Origin: a virus
Direction: 5' to 3' (one strand)
Length of the DNA: 64,000 bases
IMG/VR virus record: IMGVR_UViG_3300042319_000564
Span: 1 to 64,000 of that record
Made by a program: the position numbers and the translations under genes. Shown piece by piece: positions 39,995-55,905 of this stretch (its first letter is position 1; the number at the start of each line of letters is the position of its first letter). Under the pieces are notes generated by a model. That model did no database searches and was not told where the DNA came from. It saw only the letters and a program-made list of their open reading frames with translations.

Positions 39995-40056
39995 TTTTTT
40001 CTCTCTATAAGTTGTGTATAGAGATATTTAATGACTTATTTGCCTGTCTAAAAATT

Positions 40057-41211: not shown

Positions 41212-41231
41212 GTTAAATATCCTTCTTTATT

Positions 41232-41240
41232 GTATTTATC
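41232..41240 (-). promoter_or_regulatory. Late-type promoter element
   Basis: GATAAATAC, 21 bases before the ATG of the Gly-rich adhesin gene. Confidence 0.7.
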
Positions 41241-41247
41241 AAACAAC

Positions 41248-41274
41248 AAAAAAGGCTCAAATTGAGCCTTTTTA
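41248..41274 (-). terminator. Rho-independent terminator
   Basis: AAAAAGGCTC and GAGCCTTTTTT around a short loop on the minus strand; ends the porin gene. Confidence 0.92.
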
Positions 41275-41291
41275 TACAATCTCAATGGAGA

Positions 41292-42173
41292 TTAGAAGCG
41301 ATGTGTTACACCAACCCCAACTTGTTTTACGTCATTTGCTGTACCAGTAGCATCAACATTACGATAGTTGACACCTAATGCAGTACGCTTACTGAAGTTA
41401 TAATCAGCACCCATTGCATAAGCTTTAACATTAGTATTTGTTTTACCATAGCTAGCTTTAGCAGTTACTGGACCAAATGCTTGACTTGCACCAAACAAAT
41501 CACCTGTACGTGCTACAGCACCTTTGTCATCACTATGTGAGTAAAATACTTGTGTATTGCCTAATTTTGCGCTACCAGCATATACTGTGCTTTTCTCAAT
41601 ACCTTGAGTATATTGTGCAACTGTTGCGTTAATGCCAAACAATTTTGCACTTGCACTATAGCTACTTGCTTCTGTGCCTACACCATTTTGTGTGCGGTCA
41701 TATGTTGCAGTTACACCTTTGACTGGTGTCAACCCAAAGAATGTACCATTGCTCATTCTTAAACCACGCAAGTTATGTACATCACCTGCAACACTACCAT
41801 ACAATGTGCCAAAAGCGTCATTGTTAGTAATTGCTAAGAAGTGACTGTGTAGATTGCGACCTAAATCAATGCTACCAAGCTTGTTTGCCAAACCAATTGT
41901 TGATTGACGATCACCAAGTTTAGTATCTGCACCAGTGATAGGATCATTGGCTTTTAAACTTGTATCTAGTACTATACGAGCCTTCATACCACCAATGTTT
42001 TCATTTACTGAAATAGTGATGTTGCTTGTTGGATCAGTAGCTAGAGTTGTTTTGCTAGTAGCACCAGTCTTAGTATTGTCAACAAATTCGCTGATTTTAC
42101 CATTTAGATTAATTTGTGCTGTTGCAACTAGTGTTGTTGCGGCCAATAATGTCGCTATTGCGATTTTCTTCAT
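41292..42173 (-). CDS. Outer-membrane porin, betaproteobacterial type
   Basis: 293 aa. A signal peptide of about 20 residues (MKKIAIATLLAATTLVATAQ) is followed by I-N-L-N-G-K-I, the first strand typical of Gram-negative porins of Burkholderiales. The body has alternating strands with Tyr and Gly, and the chain ends V-G-V-G-V-T-H-R-F, the C-terminal Phe signal recognised by the BAM complex. Host porins are usually 340-400 aa, so this is a small version. It would sit in the host outer membrane as a pore. Roles to consider are nutrient uptake in the infected cell, or replacing a host receptor porin to exclude other phages. Late TATAAATA promoter, 5' hairpin and terminator frame the gene. Confidence 0.88.
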   Translation of the reverse strand: MKKIAIATLLAATTLVATAQINLNGKISEFVDNTKTGATSKTTLATDPTSNITISVNENIGGMKARIVLDTSLKANDPITGADTKLGDRQSTIGLANKLGSIDLGRNLHSHFLAITNNDAFGTLYGSVAGDVHNLRGLRMSNGTFFGLTPVKGVTATYDRTQNGVGTEASSYSASAKLFGINATVAQYTQGIEKSTVYAGSAKLGNTQVFYSHSDDKGAVARTGDLFGASQAFGPVTAKASYGKTNTNVKAYAMGADYNFSKRTALGVNYRNVDATGTANDVKQVGVGVTHRF

Positions 42174-42185
42174 AAGATTTTCCTT

Positions 42186-42211
42186 TAAAAATAAGCCTGA
42201 TTCCTCAGGCT
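42186..42211 (-). promoter_or_regulatory. 5'-end hairpin in the porin leader
   Basis: AGCCTGA-GGAA-TCAGGCT followed by TTATTTTT, in the leader between promoter and AAAGGA site. It may stabilise the mRNA or act as a weak terminator/attenuator. Confidence 0.55.
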
Positions 42212-42218
42212 AGACTAA

Positions 42219-42226
42219 TATTTATA
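42219..42226 (-). promoter_or_regulatory. Late promoter TATAAATA of the porin gene
   Basis: Exact late consensus; 46 bases before the ATG. Transcription would begin just before the hairpin. Confidence 0.8.
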
Positions 42227-42298
42227 GTGATTTTTGTTACCCATATAAAATAGTTGTTTACGTAATAACATACGCTTTAACACAAAAATAGGCTTAAC

Positions 42299-42712
42299 TT
42301 ACTCTATTTCAATCCATGAAATTGTATCTTCATCCCATTTGTAAATTTTATCATCCGATGGGTAGGAACCAATCGGTGATTTAAATGAGCAAGTTATTTC
42401 ATCAAATATCCAAGATGGATACCCATGTTCTGCCCAATCTTGTTTAATTGCATCTTGCTTTGCTAGTTTTTCTTCATCAGTCATTGAACGAACAGTGTGA
42501 ACATCGGTACAAACTCCATCAATTATTTCATAATGACCACCTACATATATTTCATATACGCCCAAAACACTAGGTTCTGGTTTACGCACAAATTCAATAA
42601 ACTCTTCCGGGAGGTTATTAATATCAATATGAGGGAAAATTTGTATAAAATTTTCTTCAAGTATAGGATGCTCAACTGGTTCCCCGTTTTGTAATCTAAT
42701 AAATAATTTCAT
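42299..42712 (-). CDS. Tail-fibre-assembly-like small protein
   Basis: 137 aa. The pattern N-G-E-P-V-E-H-P-I-L-E-E-N-F, then P-H-I-D-I-N-N-L-P, then G-V-Y-E-I-Y, then M-T-D-E-E-K-L-A-K-Q-D, is typical of small proteins beside fibre genes in T4-like phages, often called tail fibre assembly proteins. It may chaperone the adhesins coded nearby. GATAAATA lies 27 bases upstream. The 80 bases before it to the porin hairpin hold no gene. Confidence 0.6.
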   Translation of the reverse strand: MKLFIRLQNGEPVEHPILEENFIQIFPHIDINNLPEEFIEFVRKPEPSVLGVYEIYVGGHYEIIDGVCTDVHTVRSMTDEEKLAKQDAIKQDWAEHGYPSWIFDEITCSFKSPIGSYPSDDKIYKWDEDTISWIEIE

Positions 42713-42738
42713 TTTATAAATCCTGTTAGTAATTATTA

Positions 42739-42746
42739 TATTTATC
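42739..42746 (-). promoter_or_regulatory. Late-type promoter element
   Basis: GATAAATA, 27 bases before the 137-aa gene's ATG. Confidence 0.65.
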
Positions 42747-42764
42747 TCAAAAAAATAAAGGATT

Positions 42765-42788
42765 AAAAAGGCTCAAAGAGCCTTTTTA
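42765..42788 (-). terminator. Rho-independent terminator
   Basis: AAAAAGGCTC, TTT loop, GAGCCTTTTT on the minus strand; ends the DUF4214-like gene. Confidence 0.9.
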
Positions 42789-42804
42789 TAGTAGTTTATA
42801 TTGA

Positions 42805-43704
42805 TTACGCTACGAAAGGAGTATACTCAATACCAGTTGTTGCTAAACCAACTAAACCAATAGTTGTTTCAAACGCTGATAATTCGCTAGCAATAACTAA
42901 CACATCAGCTTGACTATACTTATTAGCAGTCATCCAGTTTGTCAATGCTGTTACATCCGCGATTGTAGCTGTAGTACCCATAACATTTTTGTAAACATGC
43001 TTAATGAATGTCTCATCACTAATACCACCGGCATCAGTTTTGTATGTGTCAGTAGCTAATAGTGCTGTAGCCAATTCTTTGTTTGTCCAACCTGCATCAG
43101 CAAGATAGATACCAATACCTTTGTATGCATTAGTAACATCACTAGTACCTAATGCGGCTGCTAGTAATGCGTATACATCACCTGCACGTCCTGCGGCATC
43201 ATAAGCAATAGCTTTGTCTGTAAAGACTACACGTTCATGATCAGCAAGATTAAATTCCATGTTACTAACTAGTGTGCTAGCTAGTGTTACTTTACTAGCA
43301 GTTTTAGTTGTAGTGAACTCTGTACTTGCACCGCCTGCTGTGTAAGTGTCAATACCAGTTGTGCCAGTAACGTCAACTGTAACATCAACTGTACCGTCAC
43401 CGATACGACCTGTACCTACTACACCAAATGTAGCAATCTTACCTGCTGTACCAACTGTAGCTACTGTAACGATTAAGTTATTAGCAACTGTGCCGCCTAA
43501 TGCCGTACCAGCTAGTGTGATTGTGTCACCTGCTAGATAACCACGGCCTGCGCTAGCGGCTAGACTGTCTAACACAACGGAATAAACTCCGTTAGTTTTT
43601 GTAACATCAAATGCGGCTTCAACGCCTGCACCGCCTGTTAAGCCAGTGATGTTTTGATAGGTAGCGTTTACCGGTTTATCTTTGATTGTAATTGTTGTTG
43701 TCAT
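42805..43704 (-). CDS. DUF4214-like surface or virion protein
   Basis: 299 aa, very low in charged residues, Thr/Val/Gly-rich. Residues 1-160 are beta-rich with Gly-Thr motifs. Residues about 170-299 match the DUF4214 pattern: F-I-K-H-V-Y-K-N-V-M-G, then A-L-T-N-W-M, then V-L-V-I-A-S-E-L-S-A-F and G-I-E-Y-T-P-F. In bacteria this module is found in S-layer and exported repeat proteins, which supports an aquatic betaproteobacterial gene source. There is no signal peptide, so a virion role is more likely than secretion. AAGGAAA is the ribosome site. Confidence 0.65.
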   Translation of the reverse strand: MTTTITIKDKPVNATYQNITGLTGGAGVEAAFDVTKTNGVYSVVLDSLAASAGRGYLAGDTITLAGTALGGTVANNLIVTVATVGTAGKIATFGVVGTGRIGDGTVDVTVDVTGTTGIDTYTAGGASTEFTTTKTASKVTLASTLVSNMEFNLADHERVVFTDKAIAYDAAGRAGDVYALLAAALGTSDVTNAYKGIGIYLADAGWTNKELATALLATDTYKTDAGGISDETFIKHVYKNVMGTTATIADVTALTNWMTANKYSQADVLVIASELSAFETTIGLVGLATTGIEYTPFVA

Positions 43705-43798
43705 AAATTTCCTTTTATATATAAAAAATAACTCAATAAGTATATAGCGTTTCTACTAGTAATGTCAAGGTTAATCCTGGCTAAACGTGTGATCCGGA

Positions 43799-44482
43799 TC
43801 ACATGTTGGTGTGAAAAATAGCTTTTTTTACCAAACTATCTATGCTATTGACTAAGGGAATACCGTTTTGTTCTGATTCTCTAACAGCTAAGGGTAATTC
43901 TGTGCAACCCAATACTACAGCACTTGCACCACGACTAATCAAACTATCTACTACAGAAATTAACATGGTATGTGATACAACCATATCCCCTGCTTTAATT
44001 AAATCTATAGCAGGTTGTACTATGTTATCCATTTCTTCTTGACTAGGAACAATACAATCCCAATCAGTTAAACGGTTTTGATATAAGCCTAATTCAATTG
44101 TAGCTTGTGTTCCCATTATACCTATTGTGCCTGTAACATTTATATCACGTAATGAATCAGCTACGCTATCTACAATATGTAGAATAGGAATTTTAAATTT
44201 AACTAATTCATCATACCAGTAATGTGCTGTGTTGCAAGGTATGACAATTGAAGTACATCCAACTGCTTTCAATACTTGCATACCTTGTAGTAAGTATGGT
44301 AGTGGTCTATCATCACCATTACGTATACTTGTACTACGATCTGGTACACGTGGTTCATTCCATAGTACGAACGGAATATGTTCTTGGTCACAACTTGCAG
44401 GTGTTTGTTGTATAAGTCTAGTTACGAACTCTGCACTTGCGGCTGGACCCATTCCACCTAGTATACCTAATCGTTTGGTCAT
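43799..44482 (-). CDS. Aspartate/glutamate racemase
   Basis: 227 aa, the usual length. The N-terminus L-G-I-L-G-G-M-G-P-A-A is the family signature. The two catalytic cysteines are C83 in I-P-C-N-T-A-H and C193 in L-G-C-T-E-L-P. PLP-independent; it interconverts the L and D forms of Asp or Glu. It is the last gene of the operon with the amino-acid-binding protein and symporter, and starts by ATGA overlap with a 20-aa membrane peptide gene. D-Glu is needed for peptidoglycan and D-amino acids for signalling; the phage use is unknown. Confidence 0.9.
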   Translation of the reverse strand: MTKRLGILGGMGPAASAEFVTRLIQQTPASCDQEHIPFVLWNEPRVPDRSTSIRNGDDRPLPYLLQGMQVLKAVGCTSIVIPCNTAHYWYDELVKFKIPILHIVDSVADSLRDINVTGTIGIMGTQATIELGLYQNRLTDWDCIVPSQEEMDNIVQPAIDLIKAGDMVVSHTMLISVVDSLISRGASAVVLGCTELPLAVRESEQNGIPLVNSIDSLVKKAIFHTNM

Positions 44483-44541
44483 ATTATAACCAATATGATG
44501 ATTATGAAAATACCAATAGCTATTACGCTAGGAAGTCTCAT
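44479..44541 (-). CDS. 20-aa membrane peptide
   Basis: ATG at 44541 overlaps the stop of the 200-aa membrane protein gene, and its TGA overlaps the racemase ATG. The peptide is one hydrophobic helix (MRLPSVIAIGIFIIIILVII). The tight coupling at both ends makes translation plausible. It could help the symporter, or only link translation of the genes around it. Confidence 0.45.
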   Translation of the reverse strand: MRLPSVIAIGIFIIIILVII

Positions 44542-45140
44542 TTTTTGAATAATAATGCCGAAGCAATAACTAATGCTGTTTGTGCGGCTTCTACATCAGC
44601 TGGTTGCTCTTTCCAACCTACACTAATTTGACCAATGAATACGCCGGGTTCAGCAGGTACACTGATTCTACACATATAGTTAACACCATTCTCCCTGTAC
44701 GCAAATCCAATTAAGCTTTGTGGCTTAAGATAAGGACTACATGGTATCTTACCAGACATTAAACCAATCACATCATTGTTGTTATCGTAGTTTTTAGAAA
44801 ATAATCCAACATCTAATCCATCATGTTGTTTAATTCTTCCACCATTGCGTGTAGCTAAGAACACGATTTTTCTAGTGTTTACTAGTGTATTAACTTCCAT
44901 TATGGATACAAGTTCTACTTCTGTATTTTTTAATAAGAAGTTGTATGCGTCATCATACTTGCCGTTCATCTTTGGTAATGCTTGTTGAGCTTTATACGTT
45001 GCCAAGAATGAATCTTTTTCTGTATAAACGATCCAACCAGCAAATCCTAGTATACAGAGAAAGACAACGGTGAATAGACGAAATGGACTTTCGCCTATAT
45101 AAGTTAATAAACTAAAGAGAAAATCTTTAAGTTTGTCCAT
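44538..45140 (-). CDS. Membrane-anchored protein next to the symporter
   Basis: 200 aa. One transmembrane helix at about residues 17-37 (RLFTVVFLCILGFAGWIVY) with a long C-terminal part, probably periplasmic, holding four cysteines or so (PCSPYL, YMCRI). No known family. It overlaps the symporter by 14 bases. A partner or regulator of the transporter is a fair guess. Confidence 0.55.
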   Translation of the reverse strand: MDKLKDFLFSLLTYIGESPFRLFTVVFLCILGFAGWIVYTEKDSFLATYKAQQALPKMNGKYDDAYNFLLKNTEVELVSIMEVNTLVNTRKIVFLATRNGGRIKQHDGLDVGLFSKNYDNNNDVIGLMSGKIPCSPYLKPQSLIGFAYRENGVNYMCRISVPAEPGVFIGQISVGWKEQPADVEAAQTALVIASALLFKK

Positions 45141-46404
45141 CCGGTGCTACCTCTTTGTCACAGACAAATGCTGTTACTGCTACGTTACCGTGTACATGAC
45201 TTGCTGTGCGAATCATATCCATTAATGGGTCAACTGCAATCAACAACACTAACACAGCTTCACTTGGAAGTTTTAACAAGTCACAAACAACTGCTACTGT
45301 AGCAACTGTTAAGATACCTGTTGTGCCTGCACTTGCTAGTCCTGCTAAGATACTACCAAATAACACTACAGCTAATCCAGTTAAACCTAACGGTGCATCG
45401 TAGATGTTAGCAATGAATACTGTAGCAATAGCATAGTAAACAATACTGCCAATACGATTAACAGTGAAACTTAGTGGAACAGTTAATTCAACTCCGCCTT
45501 TATCAAAGTGTAGTCTGTGTAATGATTCTTGTGCGTATGGTATACATGCTAATGAACTGCGTGAGCTAACAGCTACAATCAATGTTTCTTTAGTTTCACG
45601 GATAACAGTCATTAAACTTAATCCACTACGCATCCAAATTACAACAGTACCTGCAATAACTACTAATAGTCCACCAATAAATTGTTGCATTACAAAGTCA
45701 AACATAGTTAAGAATATACCTACACCCACTTTACCAACTTGTGCTGATATCATTGCTAACAATGCAATTGGTAAAAAGTAATTTAAGAACTTAAAGATGC
45801 TGATACTTGCTTGTTGAATGCTTTTAAGCACTTCTACAAGCATCTTTTGACCTTCTGTTTTAAGATGTCCAAGCGCAACACCAAATATTAAACAGAAGAT
45901 AACAATCTTCAAGCTTTCACCATTGTTTAGTGTGTTGAAGATGTTTTCTGGAATAAACTTCTCTGCCATTTTACCTGCATTTACTGAGGGTTCTACTGGC
46001 ATTGGTTCTTTAAGAGTAATGTTTAAGTCTGTCCCACTGTCTTTGTCGTTTACTAGTACACCAAGTTGTGTTTTCTTCTCAGGTGTCATTTCTGTGCCAG
46101 TTATTAGAACAGTACCTACGCCAATAGTTGCGGCTAAGAACATACTACCAACAAAGCCTACAATGATTTTGCGAATCAATTGTTGACTACCTTCTTTCTG
46201 TAGTAAGCCAATGATACCAACTAAGATAGTTGCTAATAAGAATGGTAATACTACAACTTTAAGTAAGCTGATGTAGATGCCTCCTAAGCTTTCAAAGTTT
46301 AAGCTGAACTCAGGAGCATATACTCCACTAAGTATACCAACAATGATAGAACCAAGTATGGTCCACGGGCTTGTTAAAAACGTTTTTAAATGTGTGGTTG
46401 TCAT
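45127..46404 (-). CDS. Dicarboxylate/amino-acid:cation symporter (GltP/SDF family)
   Basis: 425 aa, the normal length. Many membrane helices. The S-S-R-S-S-L-A-C-I-P region takes the place of the S-S-x-x-T-L-P re-entrant loop, and V-D-P-L-M-D-M-I-R-T-A-S-H-V-H-G-N matches the D-R-x-x-D-M-x-R-T-x-x-N-V-x-G-D substrate and cation site. The changes (R to P, N to H, D to N) may alter the substrate. It would import Asp, Glu or C4-dicarboxylates across the inner membrane with protons or sodium. It follows the binding-protein gene by nine bases. Confidence 0.9.
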   Translation of the reverse strand: MTTTHLKTFLTSPWTILGSIIVGILSGVYAPEFSLNFESLGGIYISLLKVVVLPFLLATILVGIIGLLQKEGSQQLIRKIIVGFVGSMFLAATIGVGTVLITGTEMTPEKKTQLGVLVNDKDSGTDLNITLKEPMPVEPSVNAGKMAEKFIPENIFNTLNNGESLKIVIFCLIFGVALGHLKTEGQKMLVEVLKSIQQASISIFKFLNYFLPIALLAMISAQVGKVGVGIFLTMFDFVMQQFIGGLLVVIAGTVVIWMRSGLSLMTVIRETKETLIVAVSSRSSLACIPYAQESLHRLHFDKGGVELTVPLSFTVNRIGSIVYYAIATVFIANIYDAPLGLTGLAVVLFGSILAGLASAGTTGILTVATVAVVCDLLKLPSEAVLVLLIAVDPLMDMIRTASHVHGNVAVTAFVCDKEVAPDGQT

Positions 46405-46413
46405 AGCAGGTCC

Positions 46414-47232
46414 TTATTTCTTTTCTGCTTTATATCTATCCATTAACTTTTTAGTGTCAATGTTACTGTATTCATTTTTGATAACATAATCTACAATACT
46501 TAGTAACTGTGTAGATTTGTAATTTACTGCTACTGCAATGTTATCTACACTATCACTGATTGTAATTGACTTTGTAGTAATGGCTGCATCTGGCTTTTCA
46601 AAAGCAATTTTCTTAATTTCAAACTCATCTCTATAAGCGGCTGCAATATCACCACGTGTTACTTTATCAATGATTACTTCCCATTTATCTTCTGGGAGAA
46701 ACGTAGCTTTGGGGAAATTAGTACGTGCAAACGTGTCATAGCTTGAGTTACGAATAAAACTTATCTTACCATTAAAATCTCTAATGACTTGATATACTTC
46801 ACGTCCTTGGCTGTTTTGACTTAGCCATAAACGATTGAGAACCAGTGACTGTCTTAGTTTAACATATGGTGTGCTAAATTTAACTACTTGTAGTCTAGGG
46901 GCTGTAACAGATAATTTACTTACAGCAACATCTGCTCTACCGTCTCGTACTTGTTCAACAACTTCAGCAAAACTTTCAGCATCTCGTCTAAACTGTACCG
47001 GGACTCCAAGCATTACGCCTATTCTTCGTGCAATTTCAACGTCAAGACCTTTGATATCATCCCCTTCACCACTGAAGAAGGGAGGGTTATCTTTTTTGGT
47101 CATTGCCACAATAAGAACGTTTGCTTTCTTAATTGCGGCAATATCAGGGGGTAGTGGTACCGTAGAAGTTGGTAATTGTGCGTGGACAACTGAACTAATC
47201 AGTACGAATAATAATAGTAGTAGTTTTTTCAT
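46414..47232 (-). CDS. Periplasmic amino-acid-binding protein (SBP family 3)
   Basis: 272 aa. Signal peptide MKKLLLLLFVLISSVVHA, then a family-3 solute-binding pattern: K-K-D-N-P-P-F-F, G-L-D-V-E-I-A-R-R-I-G, V-R-D-G-R-A-D-V-A-V-S, and F-S-T-P-Y-V. The protein binds a polar amino acid in the periplasm. No ABC permease is coded here; the neighbour is a secondary symporter, which is unusual. TATAAATAC with the ATG seven bases after makes a late, leaderless transcript. Confidence 0.88.
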   Translation of the reverse strand: MKKLLLLLFVLISSVVHAQLPTSTVPLPPDIAAIKKANVLIVAMTKKDNPPFFSGEGDDIKGLDVEIARRIGVMLGVPVQFRRDAESFAEVVEQVRDGRADVAVSKLSVTAPRLQVVKFSTPYVKLRQSLVLNRLWLSQNSQGREVYQVIRDFNGKISFIRNSSYDTFARTNFPKATFLPEDKWEVIIDKVTRGDIAAAYRDEFEIKKIAFEKPDAAITTKSITISDSVDNIAVAVNYKSTQLLSIVDYVIKNEYSNIDTKKLMDRYKAEKK

Positions 47233-47238
47233 AGTACT

Positions 47239-47247
47239 GTATTTATA
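47239..47247 (-). promoter_or_regulatory. Late promoter TATAAATAC of the amino-acid import operon
   Basis: Exact consensus; start codon at 47232 falls near +1. Confidence 0.75.
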
Positions 47248-47274
47248 CTAGGAAAACCCTAACTTACCATAAAA

Positions 47275-47895
47275 TTACTTATTTGCCAATGGATTATCCA
47301 TAGCTTTTTGTATTTTGCTATCAACTTCTCTCTTTAATGTCTCTACTTCACGGTTTATTTCTCTACGAGCGGCAGTAAATTCACTATTAATTTCTTTACG
47401 GGTTGATTCCATATCTTTACGAATTGCAGCCGCTTCGGTTCTGGCCCTTTCTAGGTCTTCTCGCACAGCCTTACGCATATCACGCATTTCTAACTCGGTT
47501 TCACGTTGGGCTGTCTTAACACTACGTTCCACTTGTTCAGTCACAGATTCATTACGGCGGATATCATTCTTCAAATCAGTTTTGATATCACGTGTATAAT
47601 CAGCACCTTTTTGACTATTCTCCTCAATGACCGCTAAACGTTTATCAAATCCAGATAAGTCTGGTGCACTATATTCAGCAATTTTTTTCTTCATACCCAC
47701 GTAGTCTTTATAGACTTCAAAGGTTCCGTAAAGCCCACCTAATATAGATGATACAATTGTGGCTGCAACCATTAGTTTAGCTGGGGTAAATTCATATCCA
47801 CCAATACTAATAACTGTATCTTTGCTAGCATACTTTTTAGCGGCTGCCTCAAGTTCATCAACCTTAGCATTTACGTTTTTAATTTCTTCTGTCAT
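47275..47895 (-). CDS. Membrane-anchored coiled-coil protein
   Basis: 206 aa. One membrane segment at about residues 41-61 (LMVAATIVSSILGGLYGTF), then a long Arg/Glu coiled coil to the end (RTEAAAIRKDMESTRKEIN and similar), and a PLANK tail. This is the architecture of a membrane-tethered stalk. It could be a structural or lysis-related protein, or an exclusion factor. Function unknown. It is the last gene of a unit that begins with the secreted proteins at 48-51 kb. Confidence 0.65.
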   Translation of the reverse strand: MTEEIKNVNAKVDELEAAAKKYASKDTVISIGGYEFTPAKLMVAATIVSSILGGLYGTFEVYKDYVGMKKKIAEYSAPDLSGFDKRLAVIEENSQKGADYTRDIKTDLKNDIRRNESVTEQVERSVKTAQRETELEMRDMRKAVREDLERARTEAAAIRKDMESTRKEINSEFTAARREINREVETLKREVDSKIQKAMDNPLANK

Positions 47896-47916
47896 TGTTT
47901 TCTCCTAATTTATTTG

Positions 47917-48006
47917 TTATCTTAATATTAGATATTGCACTATTACAATGAATGCTATAACTATTACCACACCACATACTATATCATAAATGAGTTGTCC
48001 ATTCAT
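47917..48006 (-). CDS. 29-aa membrane peptide
   Basis: ATG at 48006 lies seven bases after TTAGGA, which is part of the previous gene's final codons. The peptide has one membrane helix (YDIVCGVVIVIAFIVIVQYL) with charged ends. No other ORF covers this stretch. Moderately supported by the ribosome site and spacing. Confidence 0.45.
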   Translation of the reverse strand: MNGQLIYDIVCGVVIVIAFIVIVQYLILR

Positions 48007-48007
48007 A

Positions 48008-49828
48008 TCATTGTCCTAACTTATATTGTTGATTGACCATTTCTTGGTGTAATCTATCACTACCCAATCCTCTTAACAATCTTACGTTATCAACATTGAC
48101 TTGATTTTTGTATATCTCTTTTGGTGCATAGAATGCTACATCAGGCATCATTACTGAATATGCTTGATATCCTGCAGGTTGTATTGCCATCTTATTAATA
48201 TCAACAGCTCCAGCCAATTCATTTGGCAATACATTTTTTTTCACTGTTTCTGTCTTTTGTTCTTGTGAATTTGTATTTTGTAATATAGTACGTTCTTCTA
48301 TTGCATCGTTTAATACAGAACGTGTACCCATTTTGATACCTTCATTTTGTGGTAATTCTATTTCAATACTAACTGAGTTTGGTACACGTGAAACAAGTAA
48401 TTCAAATCGTGCAGAGTCACTAGTTGTATTCATATTTTGTAAACCTGATATGTTTTCTATAGAAGGTTGAACGTAGCTATTATTAACCATAGCAAGTGAT
48501 GATGCTGATGAACTAGTATCACTATTAATTGTTTGTTGCGTTGCTGGTTTTAATAATTCAATAGTAAATGCAGTAACTGTTGTTGAATTTGATTCTGTTG
48601 TTTGTGTTGTATTGTTAGATTTTAATACTTCAACCTTACCTACAGTAGTTTGTGTAGAACCACTGAGTGGACCACTAGAACTTTGTGCTTGCATTGAACT
48701 AGTTGTTGTAGCACTAGTTGTAGTAGTTGTAGTGCTTTGACTAACTGCTGAGGCAGCAACTGCTTCTGCTTGTTCTTGTGCTTGCATTGCATCTTTGGAT
48801 GCAGCCGATTCTGCGGCTTGCACTACAGACTTTGCCTCGTTGCCAATTCTAGCCTGATTACTACTAATCATACTTAATACTGATCCTAGACTAGGTCCAG
48901 CTTTGTTATCACTTGCTGTTTTAGTTTCACTAGGCTTAGATTGTTGACCTCCTCCTTGGGGTTGACTACCGGGTGGAGGTGGACCATTTGGATTATTACC
49001 CGGTCCTGGGCCTGGTGGGGGTGGACTACCCGGTGGCGGTTCTGTTCCAGGAGGCGGGGGCGGTGCACCATCCGGCGGGGGTGGAGCATCTCCTGGAGGA
49101 ACTATTACAGGATTTAGTTTTGCAAGCGCATCATTATATCCTCTACAGCTAGGTGAGTACAATGGATTGTTAGTACACGGATCAACACTATACTTCAAAC
49201 TAAAATTAACCGCAGTTATTTCTGGTCCATATGGCCCTGTTAAGTTATTAGTATCTTTACCAATAAATCCGTATACAGCATTACCGAGATCAGGCACACC
49301 ATACGCACTTTTAAAATCTCTGCTAAGATTAAAGTTTCTCCAACCGTATGTATTGTATGTTAGATCCCAGTTATAACCTTCTAACACTTTTGAGTTTGTA
49401 TTGTTGTAGATATTTACATAGGCACTGAAAATGTCGGTCTGGCCATTGTCCCATCCATTACCGTTTTTCGCTTGAAATGTAAAGTTAAATCCGTTAACTT
49501 GTAGGCCTGTACCACTATTAGGCAATGCGTTTTTAATACTAACAATCTGGTATAAATCAGTTGCCTGATTAGAGAAGTTAATAACATTGGAACCTGAGCC
49601 CCAAGCAGCAACTCTAGGTAATCCACCACAATAACCTTGCCCACCCGGCTCCCAGCAGGTAAGCTGTTGACCAATAGTACCAGCATTTTGCCAGGTAGAG
49701 GTTATACCAGTAGCCTGATTAGTAAAGTTAGTCAGGTTACCGGTAGTAGATATATCTTGACTATTAGAATAACTTGCGGACAACAACGCCAAGGATAGCG
49801 CCAATGCCAATTTTCTTATAAGTATCAT
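48008..49828 (-). CDS. Secreted protein with Pro-rich linker
   Basis: 606 aa. Signal peptide MILIRKLALALSLALLSASY, then a folded N-terminal domain of about 200 aa (Trp/Gly/Asn-rich, C-x10-C pairs such as LTCWEPGGQGYC). A Pro/Gly-rich linker follows (PPPPDGAPPPPPGTEPPPGS), then a Ser/Thr/Gln-rich region and a C-terminal domain with S-V-S-I-E-I-E-L-P. This looks like an exported surface or envelope protein. It overlaps the next gene by 65 bases. Function unknown; it could modify the surface of the infected cell. Confidence 0.7.
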   Translation of the reverse strand: MILIRKLALALSLALLSASYSNSQDISTTGNLTNFTNQATGITSTWQNAGTIGQQLTCWEPGGQGYCGGLPRVAAWGSGSNVINFSNQATDLYQIVSIKNALPNSGTGLQVNGFNFTFQAKNGNGWDNGQTDIFSAYVNIYNNTNSKVLEGYNWDLTYNTYGWRNFNLSRDFKSAYGVPDLGNAVYGFIGKDTNNLTGPYGPEITAVNFSLKYSVDPCTNNPLYSPSCRGYNDALAKLNPVIVPPGDAPPPPDGAPPPPPGTEPPPGSPPPPGPGPGNNPNGPPPPGSQPQGGGQQSKPSETKTASDNKAGPSLGSVLSMISSNQARIGNEAKSVVQAAESAASKDAMQAQEQAEAVAASAVSQSTTTTTTSATTTSSMQAQSSSGPLSGSTQTTVGKVEVLKSNNTTQTTESNSTTVTAFTIELLKPATQQTINSDTSSSASSLAMVNNSYVQPSIENISGLQNMNTTSDSARFELLVSRVPNSVSIEIELPQNEGIKMGTRSVLNDAIEERTILQNTNSQEQKTETVKKNVLPNELAGAVDINKMAIQPAGYQAYSVMMPDVAFYAPKEIYKNQVNVDNVRLLRGLGSDRLHQEMVNQQYKLGQ

Positions 49829-51044
49829 CTATCTTTACCTCATCTACTTTTGGTAGTTTTTCTGGGTTTGCTTCCCAAGATGCTTTAGCTTGTTCACCAA
49901 TCTTACCGTCGTATGGACAAGGTGTTCCTGCTGCCAACATAGCTTCAAATACACGACGGTCTTGACACATCACAGCAACTGCGGCTACCTTCATACCCAT
50001 GTCGTATAGAGTTTTAGACAACTTTAATCTTTCACAATTCATGTCACGTACTGTTCCACCTGAACTTACACCAAATACTTGTGTCTGTACACTACCAGAA
50101 CTACCGGTGCTACATAAGTCAGCATTGCCACCACTTAACATAGAGGGTGCAACAGCAGTTGGTGGAGGTTGAATAACTCTTTGAGTTACTTCAGTTTTAT
50201 TAATATTAGTATTAGTTACCTCACCGGCTTGAATATTTGTACTTACATTAGTGTTTTGATTAATATTGTTATTAACAGCAGTACTAGCACTAGTTGAAGT
50301 ATTGATATTACGGTTAGTCATATCACCGGTATTGACATTGTTGTTTGTAGCAGTACTACTATTAACATTATTATTGTTGTTGACGGCAGTACTAGTATTA
50401 ACATTATTGTTGTTATATGTCATTGTACCAGTATTTTCATTCTTGTTTACGTTAGTATTGACACTAGTACTAGTATTAACATTATTATTGTTATACGTCA
50501 TTGTACCGGAATTAACATTAAAGTTAGTATTTGTATTTGTACTTGTACTTGTACTAGCATTGTTATTGTTATATGTCATTGTACCAGTATTAACATTGTT
50601 ATTGTTATTTGTAGCGGTACTAGTGCTTGTGCTAGCATTGTTATTGTTATATGTCATTGTTCCGGAATTAACATTATTGTTATTATATGTCATTGTTCCC
50701 GAATTGACATTATTATTGTTATTTGTAACAGTACCGCTTTGCACATTATTATTGGTGTTTACACTAGTACTATTGTTGTTATTAGTATTATTGCTAGTAC
50801 TATTGACTGCACTAGTGCTATTACTATTACTGTTACTAGTTGTATTACTGTTTGAAGTAACCGTACTAGTACTATTACTTGTACTGTTAGTGTCTACTAG
50901 ACTTTTAGAATCATACGTTCCCTGATTAATTAGGGTACTTGTACCTGTAGTTGTGCCACCAGCTGAACTTGAAGTTGTGGTGGTTTGAGCTTGAATAGTG
51001 ATTGCCATGCCCATGATGGCACATATAGCGAGAATCTTTTTCAT
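49764..51044 (-). CDS. Exported Asn/Thr-rich repeat protein
   Basis: 426 aa. Signal peptide MKKILAICAIMGMAITIQAQ. Residues about 30-270 are low complexity: Asn, Thr, Ser and Val, with a periodic N-V-N-S-G-T-M-T-Y-N-N-N-N unit repeated many times. A C-terminal domain of about 120 aa has four or more cysteines (LCSTGSS, NCERL, MCQDRR, TPCPYD) and ends in a membrane-like helix (KKIGIGAILGVVVRKLF). The repeats resemble amyloid- or beta-solenoid-forming tracts in appearance only. A partner of the 606-aa protein (overlapping genes). Confidence 0.65.
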   Translation of the reverse strand: MKKILAICAIMGMAITIQAQTTTTSSSAGGTTTGTSTLINQGTYDSKSLVDTNSTSNSTSTVTSNSNTTSNSNSNSTSAVNSTSNNTNNNNSTSVNTNNNVQSGTVTNNNNNVNSGTMTYNNNNVNSGTMTYNNNNASTSTSTATNNNNNVNTGTMTYNNNNASTSTSTNTNTNFNVNSGTMTYNNNNVNTSTSVNTNVNKNENTGTMTYNNNNVNTSTAVNNNNNVNSSTATNNNVNTGDMTNRNINTSTSASTAVNNNINQNTNVSTNIQAGEVTNTNINKTEVTQRVIQPPPTAVAPSMLSGGNADLCSTGSSGSVQTQVFGVSSGGTVRDMNCERLKLSKTLYDMGMKVAAVAVMCQDRRVFEAMLAAGTPCPYDGKIGEQAKASWEANPEKLPKVDEVKIDDTYKKIGIGAILGVVVRKLF

Positions 51045-51107
51045 TTTTATTATTGTCCTCTAGAATTAATATTTAGTTAGATTTTAGTTGAGAAATATCA
51101 AGCTTTA

Positions 51108-51443
51108 TTAAATTTTGATGAGTATGTCAGAGTTTGGAGTTAATGATGGCACGCCAGGCCAAACTGTTTTTAACTGAAATTTTAGAGTACTGTCACTTAT
51201 TCTTCTCAGTCCTAAGGCAGTTTCGCTTGACCAATCGTAAACCCAAAACCTTTGTCCAGATGGGATTTTTTGAAGTTTGCGTAATACTTTAGGTAATTGT
51301 TTTTTTATAATATAATCTACAGCGTGGGGAGATACCCCACGATCTTTGGCACGATCTATTGCATGTTGGTCTACTATGATTTCTAAATCATTAGTAATTA
51401 TAGTACCCATAGCCGCTTCTGTTATAACTTCATTAATACGCAT
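51108..51443 (-). CDS. Toxin/nuclease-like protein with capsid-targeting-like N-terminus
   Basis: 111 aa. The N-terminus M-R-I-N-E-V-I-T-E-A-A resembles the leader of T4 internal head proteins, with a possible cleavage after I-T-E. The body D-Q-H-A-I-D-R-A-K-D-R-G-V-S-P, then K-V-L-R-K-L-Q, then R-F-W-V-Y-D, then L-R-R-I-S-D-S-T-L-K-F-Q-L-K-T-V-W resembles small RelE/BrnT-like or DUF4258-like toxin folds (H-A-x-x-R early, basic residues, C-terminal strands). No antitoxin gene is evident. It would be a packaged effector injected with DNA; inference from two weak signals. CATAAATAG lies five bases upstream. Confidence 0.5.
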   Translation of the reverse strand: MRINEVITEAAMGTIITNDLEIIVDQHAIDRAKDRGVSPHAVDYIIKKQLPKVLRKLQKIPSGQRFWVYDWSSETALGLRRISDSTLKFQLKTVWPGVPSLTPNSDILIKI

Positions 51444-51446
51444 ATA

Positions 51447-51455
51447 CTATTTATG
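51447..51455 (-). promoter_or_regulatory. Late-type element, variant
   Basis: CATAAATAG, with the ATG at 51443 near +1; weaker match than others. Confidence 0.45.
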
Positions 51456-51460
51456 CAAAA

Positions 51461-51483
51461 AGGAAAGGCTCCTGAGAGCCTTT
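51461..51483 (-). terminator. Terminator of the tmRNA gene
   Basis: AAAGGCTC, short loop, GGAGCCTTT on the minus strand; the same stem family as the fibre-gene terminators. Confidence 0.75.
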
Positions 51484-51756
51484 ACTGAGTTTCTGTTACG
51501 AGGTATGTCTTACCCTAGGTAGCCTTTATCAAGCTGCCAATGCGAACTGTGAGTCGTTTGCGTTTACTTTTTTTGCTTCTACGACCGGGAAACCCCTGTC
51601 CTACGGCTTCTGCTTTGCCGAGCTGTCCACTATGTTACTCTTTGCCCAATCGATCCTGTGTCATCCCCACCTAAATATACATTATACACTTAGGTGGAGA
51701 TGGCCGGCACTGCCCCGGCGTCTTGAACTTATTTTACATCGTTTCATACAGCAATA
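51463..51756 (-). ncRNA. ssrA: Circularly permuted (two-piece) tmRNA gene
   Basis: Read on the minus strand, the order is acceptor piece, short loop, coding piece. Acceptor side: T-arm GCCGG/CCGGC (51719-51703) with a 7-base loop GGCAGTG, then CATCTCC-A-CC (51702-51693). Coding side: starts GGGGATG at 51668, whose seven bases pair with CATCTCC (one G-U). A loop of about 20 bases (TAAGTGT...) joins them, and the stem extends on both sides (CACCTAA/TTAGGTG), as expected for an uncut precursor. The tag frame is GCA AAC GAC TCA CAG TTC GCA TTG GCA GCT TGA TAA (51561-51526), giving ANDSQFALAA with a double stop; AND...ALAA is the known tag form. TTGGGC (51649-51644) can pair with GTTCAA (51728-51723) as helix P2. 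The T-loop departs from the TTC consensus. tmRNA frees stalled ribosomes and tags the peptide for ClpXP. Confidence 0.9.
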
Positions 51757-51759
51757 ACT

Positions 51760-54700
51760 TCAATTGTATTTAGTATTAAAATACTCTTGCAACCAAGGCC
51801 AATCATAACTTAAACGTAATTTATCTAACTCACCATTGACTGATTCATAGTATTCTACAGCATCTAATGCACCATTGATACTATATTGGGCAAAATCTCC
51901 TTCACCTACAGTTGACCATATCTTTAATCTATGTCTGCTTATAGTACTATCTTCTAATCGTAACTTAATAGCTTCACGGAAACTAGTACGCCAGGTACTA
52001 AACTCATCAGTATTGTATACTGCTATACCTGAATTAATATTTACGACCTCATGTTCATTATCTAGCGTAAAGTCTAATCCTTTACCCATATTAAGTAATG
52101 TAATATGTTTATTGTATGCAATCATAGCTTGGTGACCGTATTCTAATCCATTGACCGAGTTAGTTGCATGAAAAATATAATGTTTAGGTACTTGTAGTCT
52201 ATCAGGTTGCCATGACCAATCAAATTTATCATTAACACGTAACTTAGCAAATACGGTAAACATCCATGGTGTGTTACTTGATTCTGCAGCCGCATGATAG
52301 GCTGCTACACGACCGTCAACCCCATCAACTCTAACAACACGATTTTTTAGTCCTTTAGTCACTTTCAGTAAATGTTCGTAGTTCTCGTCAGCACCCGTTT
52401 CACCGTTACTTAGGAAGACTATATCCAGTGGCTTTGACTGTCCCATTTTTGTTGATTTAGTAATATATGGATAATCGTACAATTCTTTTTCAACATAATT
52501 ATTAGCTTCTTTTGGTACAACAATACGTGTGCCTCCCGTGTTAGTAATCAATATATTCTTTGACTCACTAGACCACATGCTAATAGGTTCATCATTGGTA
52601 TCCGGTGTAGTTACATTATCACTTGTAGTAAACACTGCATATGGGAAATCGTAAGAATGTTTTTTAAAGTTTAAATGTGTATCTTGTTCAGTTACAAAAT
52701 TAGGTGCGGGTAAACGTTTTACTTTTTGATGCTGATTAAAGTTAATCTTCTCTATGTTTTCTAACTTATCTAAATCTTCTACTAGCTCATGTAGTTTATT
52801 TACATTAATAAAAAATGTATCACCAAACTTCTGCCTATCACTAGGGAACACATGCAATTGATCTAATGAGAATGGATCACATATATAAGTAAAATCAAAG
52901 TTTGTATAATCACATATTGAACTGCAAACCCAAATATAATGATCTTTTTTAGTATCTAACTTATGTAGAATGTTTTTCAATGTGGTTAAATAATTATTTT
53001 CATATTTAATTTTGTGAACATTTAAACGTTTAGTTTTATTTTTAATTAATGATACCGTATCATTGATAGTAGTGTGATTACCGTAATCAATTAAATAAAC
53101 ATCATATAAACAATTACTAGCAATAGCACGTTTTGTTTTTAAAAAGTTTAAGTTACGTAAGTGTTCAATAATTTTTACATATTTTGTATCTTCAGCAAAG
53201 GTTTCTTTATTGACCATAAAGGTAGTACCCCAATGACTCCATTGTGTTCCAAACACATGTACCATTGACATTTGCCACGGGTTAGGATAATAATTAAATT
53301 CAAAATCAGTATAATCTAATTCACTGTTTAATATCCAACACAATTCAGTTGTAGATTTGTTGATACAGCGATTGATGGTCTCAACCCAACTATTTAAGTA
53401 ACGTGTTTTTTGTAGCGTTGGGAACTGTGTTTTAAGTTGTTCAAATCTAGTTAATGATTCTTTATTACCTTTGTCTACAAAAAATGCATCAACTGGTTTA
53501 AACAGTTTAGATAGATATTCTTCATCTAATTTTACATTTTCAACAAAGTTTATATCTCTGTAACCGTTATGCCACATTTTACTGTTAACTAGATATGTGT
53601 GTGTTGTTTCGCTATCAGGTGATCCAAACACATTGATATTGAATGCTTGTTCTTTAGTAGGATGCCAATCAAAATTAAATGTAGTATAATCAATATTTTT
53701 ACGCAAAGCCCAAAATATTTCATCTTTGTGTGCTTCTATCAATTTTTCTAAGGTGGTTTCAATATAATATTGTGGATATTGAATCTTATTATCAGATAAT
53801 AATACATTTTCTAATAACACAACATGGCCATCATTACCCGGTGTAATATATTTAGGTCCATCTTGTAAATGAATATCCTCTAATACTGTACCAAATTGAT
53901 AGATATAGGCAGGACTAGTAGCATCAGGATGCCAACTAAAGTCAAATTTTGTATCGTCAAATCCTGCAGGTATAATCCAATTTGTGTTGTCAGGTAATCG
54001 TTTAGATTTTAATACATCCAGATACTTAATTGGGGTATCAACTGTAGACCCGGGAGGTGTGTATATAGGACCATTTGTTTTTTGCCATTGTGTACCAAAT
54101 TGGTATATTAAAGGATCATCATTAATATCAGGATGCCAACTAAAATCAAACTCGCTAACATCTAATCTAGATGGCACACTCCAATATGTCATATCCGGTT
54201 TTAGTTTTGCTACAGGATAATCCATGTATTTGATATCGGTTGCGCCATTTGCAATATATTTAGGTCCACCTACTTTATCCCATGTACTTGAAAACTGATA
54301 GATATAGGCAGGTTCAGTTGAATCCGGATGCCAACTGTAATCAAATTCTTCTACGTTAACAGGTATATCCCAATTTGTTTTATCAGAAATACGTTTGGCT
54401 TTAAGTATATCCATATATTTTACGGGAGTATTTTCATTACAGCCCGGTGCTGTAAATATAGGACCGTCTGTCTTTTGCCATTGTGTGCCAAATTGATATA
54501 CAAAAGGATCATCGTTAATATCAGGATGCCAACTAAAATCAAACTCACTAGAATCTAGGCCGGCTGGAATAGACCAATGAGTCATATCTTGTTTAACTGT
54601 TGCAATAGGATAATCTAAATATTTTATTTCTGTAGCACCCTCTACAGTGAATTTAGGTCCACCTGTTTTACTCCAGGGACTAGGGAATTGATAGATATAG

Positions 54701-55905
54701 GGAGATTCAGTACTATCCGGGTGCCAACTAAAATCAAATAATTTTTGATCCACATTTCCAGGTATTAACCAATTGGTAAATCTCCAAGCTATAACTTCTG
54801 CTCTAATAACATCTATATATTTAATTTCTGTTGCACCGGGAACTACATATCTAGGTCCACCTGTTTTTTGATGTACCGTTCCAAATTGATATATGTAGGG
54901 AGGATCATTAGGATTAGGTTCCCAACTAAAATCAAAACTATTTTTTATAACATACGGAGGTATTTCCCAATTATCCATACACTGTTTACGTGTAGCACGT
55001 TCTTCCATGTACTTATATTCTGTTGCACCTTCAACAACATATTGAATAGAAATTTTATCTGCAGGGTTATTCCATTGATTCCCCCATGCATATATAAATG
55101 GAGGACTATAAGGGTCAGGTTGCCATGAATAGTCTATTCCATCACTATTTTCTAAATGAGTAAATCTAGCACTGTTGGGCAATAACTCTGCCTTCATTGA
55201 ATCATCGTTAATATATTTTCGTTTAGTAGCTCCTGGTACATGATACTCAACAGTTGGCATAATTTCACCAGGATATAGTGTATTACCAAATACATAGATG
55301 TATGCGGGTTCATTTGGATCTGGTCTCCAGCTAAAGTCAAATGTAGACTTATCTATAGATTTCCATATTTTCCACTTGTCCCATTCAGGTAATAATTCTA
55401 CATCATCGTACATGTATTTTACAGTAGTAGCACCTTCAACATGATATTCTACACAATGTTTAAGTTCTGTCGGGTAGAATTTGCAACCCCATTTATATAT
55501 GTAGGGAGGATCGTATGGATCGGGCTCCCAACTAAAATCAAATTTTAATTCATCTATTTTTTCTAATATTACCCAATTATCATTTTTAATGTTTTTTCTA
55601 TATATAGGTTCAACATCAGCACGATATATAATAGTATCAATATCTTGTTTTGGACATAACCATGTACCACTATCTTTATGACGGTTGCTTGGCCATACGT
55701 TATTATATTCGCTAGTCCAAACTTCGTCATCAGGTAAAAAATCAAAATCCCAATCCCAATCAAATTTAGTATAATCACAATATTCATTGATTATCCAAAA
55801 ATGTTCTGTAGTACATTGCTGTCTAGCGTCAGCTAAATCAATTGCATGTTTTTCTCGGGGGTGTGCGTTAGGTTTATTACCGTAATAAAATACATCTCTT
55901 ATCAT
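51760..55905 (-). CDS. Giant repeat protein with 14 FDFSW-type repeats
   Basis: 1381 aa. About 14 copies of a unit of roughly 60-75 residues occur along the protein, with the core F-D-F-S-W-x-P-D, then P-x-Y-I-Y-x-F-G-T. Between cores lie K-Y-M or K-Y-L-D and P-G-A-T-E segments. The units are regular in the first two thirds; the last four are divergent (F-E-F-N-Y-Y-P-N and F-D-F-T-Y). The C-terminal 250 residues (D-I-V-F-L-S-N-G-E-T-G, V-D-G-R-V-A-A-Y-H-A-A-A) look like a truncated glycosyltransferase-type fold. There is no signal peptide. It may be a carbohydrate-handling or adhesin protein. It heads the glycan cluster. The tmRNA promoter lies in its last codons. Confidence 0.7.
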   Translation of the reverse strand: MIRDVFYYGNKPNAHPREKHAIDLADARQQCTTEHFWIINEYCDYTKFDWDWDFDFLPDDEVWTSEYNNVWPSNRHKDSGTWLCPKQDIDTIIYRADVEPIYRKNIKNDNWVILEKIDELKFDFSWEPDPYDPPYIYKWGCKFYPTELKHCVEYHVEGATTVKYMYDDVELLPEWDKWKIWKSIDKSTFDFSWRPDPNEPAYIYVFGNTLYPGEIMPTVEYHVPGATKRKYINDDSMKAELLPNSARFTHLENSDGIDYSWQPDPYSPPFIYAWGNQWNNPADKISIQYVVEGATEYKYMEERATRKQCMDNWEIPPYVIKNSFDFSWEPNPNDPPYIYQFGTVHQKTGGPRYVVPGATEIKYIDVIRAEVIAWRFTNWLIPGNVDQKLFDFSWHPDSTESPYIYQFPSPWSKTGGPKFTVEGATEIKYLDYPIATVKQDMTHWSIPAGLDSSEFDFSWHPDINDDPFVYQFGTQWQKTDGPIFTAPGCNENTPVKYMDILKAKRISDKTNWDIPVNVEEFDYSWHPDSTEPAYIYQFSSTWDKVGGPKYIANGATDIKYMDYPVAKLKPDMTYWSVPSRLDVSEFDFSWHPDINDDPLIYQFGTQWQKTNGPIYTPPGSTVDTPIKYLDVLKSKRLPDNTNWIIPAGFDDTKFDFSWHPDATSPAYIYQFGTVLEDIHLQDGPKYITPGNDGHVVLLENVLLSDNKIQYPQYYIETTLEKLIEAHKDEIFWALRKNIDYTTFNFDWHPTKEQAFNINVFGSPDSETTHTYLVNSKMWHNGYRDINFVENVKLDEEYLSKLFKPVDAFFVDKGNKESLTRFEQLKTQFPTLQKTRYLNSWVETINRCINKSTTELCWILNSELDYTDFEFNYYPNPWQMSMVHVFGTQWSHWGTTFMVNKETFAEDTKYVKIIEHLRNLNFLKTKRAIASNCLYDVYLIDYGNHTTINDTVSLIKNKTKRLNVHKIKYENNYLTTLKNILHKLDTKKDHYIWVCSSICDYTNFDFTYICDPFSLDQLHVFPSDRQKFGDTFFINVNKLHELVEDLDKLENIEKINFNQHQKVKRLPAPNFVTEQDTHLNFKKHSYDFPYAVFTTSDNVTTPDTNDEPISMWSSESKNILITNTGGTRIVVPKEANNYVEKELYDYPYITKSTKMGQSKPLDIVFLSNGETGADENYEHLLKVTKGLKNRVVRVDGVDGRVAAYHAAAESSNTPWMFTVFAKLRVNDKFDWSWQPDRLQVPKHYIFHATNSVNGLEYGHQAMIAYNKHITLLNMGKGLDFTLDNEHEVVNINSGIAVYNTDEFSTWRTSFREAIKLRLEDSTISRHRLKIWSTVGEGDFAQYSINGALDAVEYYESVNGELDKLRLSYDWPWLQEYFNTKYN
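51763..51792 (-). promoter_or_regulatory. Sigma70-type promoter of the tmRNA gene
   Basis: TTGCAA at 51792-51787, 18-base spacer, TACAAT at 51768-51763; the transcript would start near 51756, fitting a short acceptor piece. Confidence 0.6.

Follow-up and report, generated by a model that had tools for sequence, protein, structure and literature searches.

The trans-translation pathway uses SmpB, AlaRS, EF-Tu and RNases. In a survey of phage tmRNAs carried out with ARAGORN, 53 of the 133 unique structures are two-piece, and a permuted tmRNA is described for Melnitz, a T4-like phage (PMC9004378). Other papers list 79 phage tmRNA sequences (the source of RF04321; PMC11915505), ten phages with ssrA (PMC4131195) and a Sinorhizobium jumbo phage with one tmRNA (PMC11242549). 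Permuted tmRNAs in T4-like phages are already known, and the original prediction for the DNA studied here, in which no such case was taken as known, has to be corrected in this respect, as Melnitz was published with one and the Menderavirus phage Bhz51 also has one. What appears to be new is a phage tmRNA lineage composed of two modules; the titles and opening parts of abstracts in the open-access literature mention neither an exchange of phage tmRNA tags nor a phage tmRNA lineage missed by ARAGORN.

Melnitz (MZ577097), a Methylophilales phage, resembles the window (the whole 64-kb stretch of DNA that was analysed) in being a T4-like aquatic phage with a permuted tmRNA, and its T-loop is GGCAGTA. 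However, its tmRNA fits the alpha_tmRNA model best (106.7 bits), has the tag ANDNYVPVDYALAA, is found by ARAGORN and is directly followed by a glutamine riboswitch match, whereas no riboswitch match was obtained in the window. The 160-kb Menderavirus phages are presumably T4-like as well. The annotated tmRNA of one of them, Stenotrophomonas phage Bhz51, is permuted and, like that of the window, fits the beta_tmRNA model best (92.1 bits), but it has a canonical TTCGATT T-loop and the tag VAANDDSYTVRIAA (as given by ARAGORN) and lies between tRNA genes; the tmRNA of the Menderavirus phage Marzo is known by annotation only. The Sinorhizobium jumbo phage Phosso (PV764938) shares with the window a permuted tmRNA that is missed by ARAGORN and a terminase with 50% identity, and has the T-loop GGCGGTA; it differs in that alpha_tmRNA is the best model (108 bits) and in an insertion of about 400 nt in the intervening segment. 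The Phosso tmRNA (L336, PV764938.1 349596-350198) is not annotated in its record, and the same applies to the permuted tmRNAs of Stenotrophomonas phage DLP_6 (L354 604-825) and Acinetobacter phage BUCT628 (L356 572-786). The terminase large subunit encoded within the window matches those of T4-type and jumbo phages, its nearest matches being the jumbo phages Phosso, PA5oct and Atu_ph07 (49-50% identity); among five named jumbo relatives (one record being partial), only Phosso has a permuted tmRNA match.

According to the Rfam covariance models, the minus strand of the window encodes a complete circularly permuted (two-piece) tmRNA at 51753-51461, and we regard this assignment as confirmed. The tmRNA_permuted model (RF04321) matches 51753-51529 with 109 bits (cut-off 47, E 2.5e-20, model positions 1-213), and beta_tmRNA (RF01850) matches 51794-51459 with 99.3 bits (cut-off 84, E 5.6e-29). 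These are the only two Rfam matches at or above the gathering threshold in the window; both recur in a repeat search on the 451 bases around the tmRNA, and the whole virus record (95,534 bases) contains one match to each of the two models. The alpha_tmRNA model (RF01849) scores 76.2 bits at the locus, which is above its cut-off of 50 but below the score of beta_tmRNA, so that RF01849 is not the best of its clan here. ARAGORN reported no tmRNA anywhere in the 64-kb window. As in RF04321, the acceptor half precedes the coding half, with an intervening segment between them. This order rules out a one-piece tmRNA, and the E-values of the models together with the covariation described below rule out a chance resemblance. 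The prediction of a permuted two-piece tmRNA in a phage, which had been made from the letters alone, is thus borne out by all three models and by the terminase matches, and the features it listed (acceptor stem, T-arm, P2, tag, stops and terminator) are all present on the minus strand (Table 1). The cut points it had placed near 51668 and 51693 coincide with the predicted ends of the two pieces, namely G1 of the coding half and the CC end of the acceptor half.

The final A of CCA is not encoded, the DNA reading CCT. The acceptor stem has G3-U70 and is followed by A73, for alanine charging, and its helix runs on into the intervening segment, giving 18 consensus pairs in total. The minimum free energy of the fold has a z-score of -3.6 (0 of 100 shuffles as low), and a terminator scan of 501 bases found two terminators, that of the tmRNA gene and one on the plus strand, against a mean of 0.2 in shuffles. 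Several pairs of the beta_tmRNA model are non-standard in the alignment of the window tmRNA, and no additional common helix emerged when the 3' part was folded by consensus.

Table 1. Features of the tmRNA locus and its surroundings (window coordinates).
Feature	Position	Strand	Basis or remark
Circularly permuted tmRNA gene, P2 to terminator	51461..51753	minus	RF04321, RF01850, covariation in 25 phage relatives
Acceptor piece: P2 5' strand, T-arm, 3' acceptor strand, discriminator A, CC	51693..51753	minus	CM alignment
P2 helix	51752-51748 / 51626-51622	minus	5 bp
T-stem	51719-51715 / 51707-51703	minus	5 bp, 7-nt loop
T-loop GGCAGTG (G54 G55 C56 A57 G58), alphaproteobacterial tmRNA type	51708..51714	minus	
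Acceptor stem, 7 bp	51702-51696 / 51668-51662	minus	
A73; CC	51695; 51694-51693	minus	
Intervening transcribed segment extending the acceptor helix, predicted to be removed	51669..51692	minus	folding, consensus pairs
Coding piece: G1 of acceptor stem, D-loop, P2 3' strand, P3, to tag stop	51529..51668	minus	
Tag reading frame ANDSQFALAA, then TGA TAA; resume codon at 51561	51532..51561	minus	
3' domain, tag stop to terminator; belongs to the exchangeable module	51484..51528	minus	
Intrinsic terminator	51464..51483	minus	terminator scan
Promoter-like TTGCAA-18-TACAAT, within the 3'-terminal part of the 1381-aa ORF upstream	51763..51792	minus	weak alone
1381-aa ORF directly upstream of tmRNA	51760..55905	minus	no Pfam match
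Mostly variable stretch downstream of tmRNA	36400..51460	minus	collinear homologues

The tmRNA lies in a phage genome, as it stands in an IMG/VR virus record and related virus contigs carry the gene at the same place; there are three such contigs, one with identical flanks (G003) and two with other tags (G005 and G008). In 50,697 phage records, no match to the window tmRNA was found at E 1, and none to L087 at E 0.01. The acceptor-helix pattern occurs in at least 119 viral stretches, and a T-arm and acceptor pattern of this type recurs in 62 viral stretches, which rules out that the window tmRNA is without relatives. One scan gave 122 pattern matches, many of which lie in coding DNA as judged by context. 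Rows with a T-arm and an acceptor recognised by script were kept from both scans (61 in all, i.e. 60 plus the window's own, L001), and 35 of them are of the G54 type; L017 and L026, in which the loop apparently has 6 nt, were lost by the T-arm expression. These two are phage tmRNA-like loci with the loop TTCGAA and the same intervening hairpin. The set of 198 loci kept consists of 44 from the acceptor-helix scan, 27 of 41 new loci from the T-arm scan, 102 of 117 bacterial loci and, for the rest, loci from model searches; L033, L085 and L090 were dropped when it was assembled.

Covariation was analysed in 25 non-identical phage relatives; the phage set has 30 rows, of which the five whose intervening segments are long were set aside. 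In this alignment, 97.0% of the cells of the named structure pair, versus a mean of 91.2% in shuffles (0 of 500 as high) and 37-48% in slid controls of the same structure. The T-stem is paired at each position in all 25 rows, and two-sided changes occur at three of its five pairs, a proportion also seen in P2 (3/5). The outer P2 pairs are broken in five rows, two of which are shifted by one column (L007 and L051), while the other three truly differ (L045, L003 and L079). All 25 rows have G3-U70, and A73 (the A after CTCC) is invariant.

The tRNA-like scaffold is 97-99% identical among the window, G005 and G008, and the tags carried on these near-identical scaffolds are ANDSQFALAA, ANDSQYLLAANA and ANDSVYSLAA, respectively. 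No match of at least 150 nt exists between the three in the next 1.5 kb downstream; the gene directly upstream is retained in G005 and G008, but its proteins are only 70% and 51% identical. Correlations between parts of the gene were determined for 28 of the 47 unique phage rows (29 were taken up, of which L115 gave no tag with the expression; other tag types were not included). The two halves of the scaffold correlate with each other (r 0.724; 0 of 2000 permutations as high), and so do the tag and the 3' domain (r 0.475; 0 of 2000). For the scaffold versus the tag or the 3' domain, r was 0.057, 0.014 and 0.021 (599, 805 and 784 of 2000 as high), and an earlier measurement of scaffold versus module had given r 0.018 over 378 pairs. 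In 28 bacterial rows (L350 was left out for having no clear tag), scaffold and tag correlate with r 0.289 and 0.359 (0 of 2000); within the nine beta rows used, r was 0.668 and 0.597 (11 and 18 of 2000), and within 16 alpha rows 0.326 and 0.218 (7 and 83 of 2000), the latter being weak too. These results show that, in the phages, the tag/3' module is inherited independently of the tRNA-like scaffold, unlike in the 28-row bacterial set, from which the phage set also differs in divergence.

The flanks of L122 and L145 are nearly identical (upstream match 359 nt, downstream match 1477 nt), and the two loci differ in the intervening segment, the segment preceding the tag, the tag itself (ANDDTFLLAANA and ANDEKFLMTA), the 3' domain and the terminator. 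L007 has upstream DNA in common with L051 (309 nt) and downstream DNA in common with L023 (623 nt). Several variants were seen in two contigs each (L122/L142, L023/L154 and L051/L161), which argues against assembly chimeras; L145, L007, L061 and L022 are known from single contigs.

Based on the anatomy, the homology, the covariation, the grouping with phage genes only and the independence of the modules, we infer, with a probability of roughly 0.8, that the gene specifies a complete permuted tmRNA that performs trans-translation with host SmpB, and that it belongs to a lineage of two freely recombining modules. A phage related to the jumbo T4-like phages carries the gene with its own terminator and promoter-like site and would produce one precursor, from which host tRNA-processing enzymes would excise the intervening hairpin, the acceptor RNA and the coding RNA staying joined through the acceptor stem and P2. 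The host would add the last A of CCA, AlaRS would charge the RNA via G3-U70, and host SmpB and EF-Tu would bring it to ribosomes that have stalled on broken messages. Such ribosomes presumably accumulate, and are common, in infection, when messages are cut, and the phage may benefit from their rescue. Translation would resume at GCA and add ANDSQFALAA, and the product would go to host proteases. Module 1 would be the conserved tRNA-like scaffold, and module 2 the exchangeable tag, 3' domain and terminator. Keeping ribosome rescue running, one of the two roles first proposed for the gene, would thus be its most likely function. No SmpB model match was found in nine phage records, most of which are possibly fragments, while the control matched in 10 of 14 genomes; host SmpB is therefore presumed. 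It should be noted that the virus record is itself a 95.5-kb fragment, and that genes for SmpB or other factors may be present in the rest of the phage genome. With its recombining tags, the lineage makes it possible to test what a phage gains from its own trans-translation and whether the destruction of tagged proteins is in its interest.

The exchange of tags suggests that the fate of the product matters, but the exchange may also be neutral. We find it doubtful, although conceivable, that the phage tmRNA mainly alters this fate, with exchangeable tags directing products to another protease or letting them escape ClpXP, and thereby controlling turnover. This would fit the divergence of tags on near-identical scaffolds and the joint movement of tag and 3' domain. 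Several phage tags no longer end in an LAA-type signal, and, out of the 19 AND-type phage tags that are distinct, four lack a final AA (ANDDTFLLAANA, ANDSQYLLAANA, ANDEKFLMTA and ANDEQFLMVA), versus none in the 28 bacterial rows. However, the other 15 do end in AA, the window tag has the usual ALAA end, and the exchange may be neutral hitch-hiking. A more speculative and rather unlikely extension is that phages run a modular rescue RNA in which module exchange redirects the products of stalled ribosomes, so that trans-translation becomes a sorting step under phage control and tag exchange a diversifying system; the scaffold would then be fitted to host SmpB and processing enzymes, and homing endonucleases would perhaps help the exchange. 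Very long tags (26-29 residues, ARAGORN) occur in the more distant phage loci L036, L057, L094, L109 and L117, and two of these five end in AV instead of AA.

The T-loop of the window, GGCAGTG, lacks U54, U55 and A58, and had been read as a deviation from the standard loop. The G54 G55 C56 R57 G58 loop is, however, of the alphaproteobacterial tmRNA type, as judged by the Rfam consensus and many SAR11 genomes: the alpha consensus has the T-loop GGCgGUA and the D-loop AGGAUCGAC, and the window has both components of the alpha-type elbow (a GGCRGU T-loop and a AGGAUCGA D-loop). A T-arm pattern scan of bacterial genomes, which found the GGCAG core in SAR11 and other alphaproteobacterial loci as well, gave at least 117 stretches, and 78 of the 80 matches listed have alphaproteobacterial titles, while the remaining two belong to MAGs of Patescibacteria (L197) and Sinobacteraceae (L204); this rules out that the loop is unusual for tmRNA as such. 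SAR11 and other alphaproteobacterial tmRNAs (RF01849) share with the window the GGCRGU T-loop and a AGGATCGA-type D-loop, but the SAR11 loci have short intervening segments and the tag ANDKFALAA or ANNKFALAA, and the window scores lower on RF01849 (76.2). On the other side, betaproteobacterial RF01850 tmRNAs resemble the window in the style of the intervening hairpin of some members (CACCTAAG...TTAGG) and in ANDxxFALAA-like tags, but each of the 10 betaproteobacterial-type rows used has a TTC T-loop, and most have GGTTTCGAC or GGCTTCGAC as D-loop, whereas the window has AGGATCGAT and lacks the canonical UUCRANU-type loop of the beta_tmRNA consensus. A TTC loop does not define every locus scoring above the beta cut-off, since one such locus (L289, 121.1 bits) has GGCGGTA. 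As judged from sequence, the window tmRNA joins an alpha-type elbow to a body for which beta_tmRNA is the best-fitting model, and the betaproteobacterial assignment made originally holds for the body (99.3 vs 76.2 bits) but not for the elbow.

This combination is not confined to phages: besides L289, L286 has the same elbow (GGCAGTA) on an RF01850-like body (80.9 bits, below cut-off). L286, L351 and L289, which are labelled gammaproteobacterial (the class of the L286 and L289 genomes being labelled through the Sinobacteraceae MAG), share with the window a GGCAGTA or GGCGGTA elbow and the RF01850-like body, but have intervening segments of 4-6 nt and the tags ANDSVYDVALAA and ANDDNFEVALAA. In the MAG family labelled Sinobacteraceae, two of 41 genomes match the L286/L351 type (G001 and G1007; GGCAGTA elbow, tag ANDSVYDVALAA).

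Positions 54 and 58 were compared in loci selected without fixing these positions (44 from the acceptor-helix scan and 16 from model searches; three second copies, and loci whose pattern fixed G-G, were left out). Among the matches listed, these 60 loci have U-A in 33 cases and G-G in 27, and are never mixed; this switch supplies natural variants of a tRNA tertiary pair. Counting near-copies, ARAGORN finds 6 of 48 phage loci with a G54 loop, 15 of 16 with a TTC loop and 2 of 7 with a TGC loop; for bacterial loci with GGCAGTA it succeeds in 94 of 99. The class of phage tmRNA described here is probably under-counted, because the published survey used ARAGORN, which overlooks most phage loci with this elbow.

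In a tree of 76 tmRNAs (47 unique out of 72 phage rows, 16 alpha rows, 10 beta rows, and the group of L286, L351 and L289), the window falls in a 30-row phage set without any bacterial row (support 95/94) and forms a trio with G005 and G008 (100/95). The 16 alpha rows and four phage rows lie across a branch with 94/89 support, and L286, L351 and L289 form their own group (100/99). The alignment has 289 columns and support is moderate, the deeper order being uncertain owing to this short length. These placements bear on the idea that the gene is a bacterial tmRNA captured after gene exchange, as has been suggested for Melnitz (PMC9004378), with Betaproteobacteria, SAR11 or the gammaproteobacterial-labelled group as sources. 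It would explain a beta-like body with a SAR11-type T-loop, and L286 and L351 share the GGCAGT elbow core, a P2-side stretch ATTGCTGTATGAAGC and GTGGACAGC with the phage genes. However, we consider it improbable, given a phage set without a bacterial row, the separate position of the gammaproteobacterial-labelled group, and the finding that none of the bacterial loci fetched, among the matches listed, combines the phage intervening hairpin with this elbow. The sampling behind this is limited to at least 117 bacterial T-arm stretches and to model searches whose prefilters lose matches; with few candidates scored per genome, RF01850 was above cut-off in at least 1 of 369, at least 1 of 398 and at least 10 of 250 genomes. 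An ancient capture of a bacterial tmRNA is possible. One phage record (G006) has, beside its full permuted tmRNA, a second weak RF04321 match (C1 101310-101443; 27.8 bits, below cut-off).

The promoter that had been proposed within the preceding gene exists as a sequence, but taken alone it is no commoner than chance (one promoter found near the tmRNA, 1.5 expected in shuffles). Its weak sigma-70-like pair has the -10 box in the register where relatives have TATAAT-like boxes, and a TAAATA lies 4-5 nt off register. In 11 of the 42 upstream regions of unique phage loci, a TTGACA-like box and a TATAAT-like box, 17 nt apart, occupy a common register at the start of the tmRNA, and another nine regions carry TAAATA there (60 or 61 on the scale of the script); none of the 42 has both in register. 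TAAATA in register is what we take to be a T4-late-type -10 core. The window contains 50 copies of TAAATA on the minus strand and 27 on the plus strand, and 22 of the 60 minus-strand ORFs have a copy in the 110 nt preceding them, a count made without a shuffled control; TAAATA is perhaps the T4-type late promoter of this phage.

Homologues of the 1381-aa ORF lie directly upstream of the tmRNA in G005 and G008 too, and the variable stretch that begins at the tmRNA is about 15-16 kb long in the window, about 2 kb in G005 and about 1 kb in G008. GIY-YIG homing-endonuclease-like genes stand directly beside the tmRNA in L022 (4396-4881; Pfam match below cut-off, PHROG match 8e-10) and L003 (2478-3245), and it is possible that such neighbours drive local recombination. 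Comparing flanks in 990 pairs among 45 loci (near-copies included), 28 pairs share both sides, 30 the upstream side only, 12 the downstream side only and 920 neither. The variable stretch, the endonuclease-like genes and the one-sided sharing would all be expected if the tmRNA were a passive recombination landmark, i.e. a site of crossover or accessory insertion whose RNA is itself without benefit. We nevertheless think this quite unlikely, since the stems are maintained through compensatory changes, G3-U70, the tag frames and the stop codons are conserved, and promoter-type boxes stand in register at the start of 20 of the 42 unique copies; this has the appearance of selection acting on a functional RNA. 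That the tmRNA is degenerate or a decoy, titrating SmpB and inhibiting trans-translation of the host, has a reported phage precedent in the tRNA-like-domain-only RNA of the mycobacteriophage DS6A type (PMC4131195, PMC11915505), but is very improbable here, where nothing is missing from the coding part, the resume codon, the stops or the 3' domain.

Downstream of the tmRNA, the window encodes a sodium:dicarboxylate symporter (SDF) beside a family 3 solute-binding protein (45127-47232). No close bacterial match was found for the symporter, or for the porin that adjoins the tmRNA in G005, in the genomes searched: the symporter search covered 250 genomes of the order that includes G629 and gave matches in two (35% identity), and the porin matched in none of 250 genomes of that order at 1e-20, in a search without a positive control. 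The tmRNA of G629 reaches 251.5 bits with beta_tmRNA. Plasmid matches of the symporter are scattered over many genera. The porin matches four plasmid records at 25-34% identity, from Cupriavidus, Burkholderia and Hydrogenophaga, genera that we take to be all Burkholderiales. A repetitive, Asn/Thr/Ser-rich ORF of 426 aa with a signal-like N-terminus (49764-51044) has no Pfam match, and the one PHROG that it matches has no known function. The flanking ORFs tallied with Pfam and PHROG are 99 of the 138 listed. Substrate-binding proteins are found near phage tmRNAs, namely TctC in four and DctP in three of these 99, and porin or outer-membrane barrel domains are found near phage tmRNAs as well.
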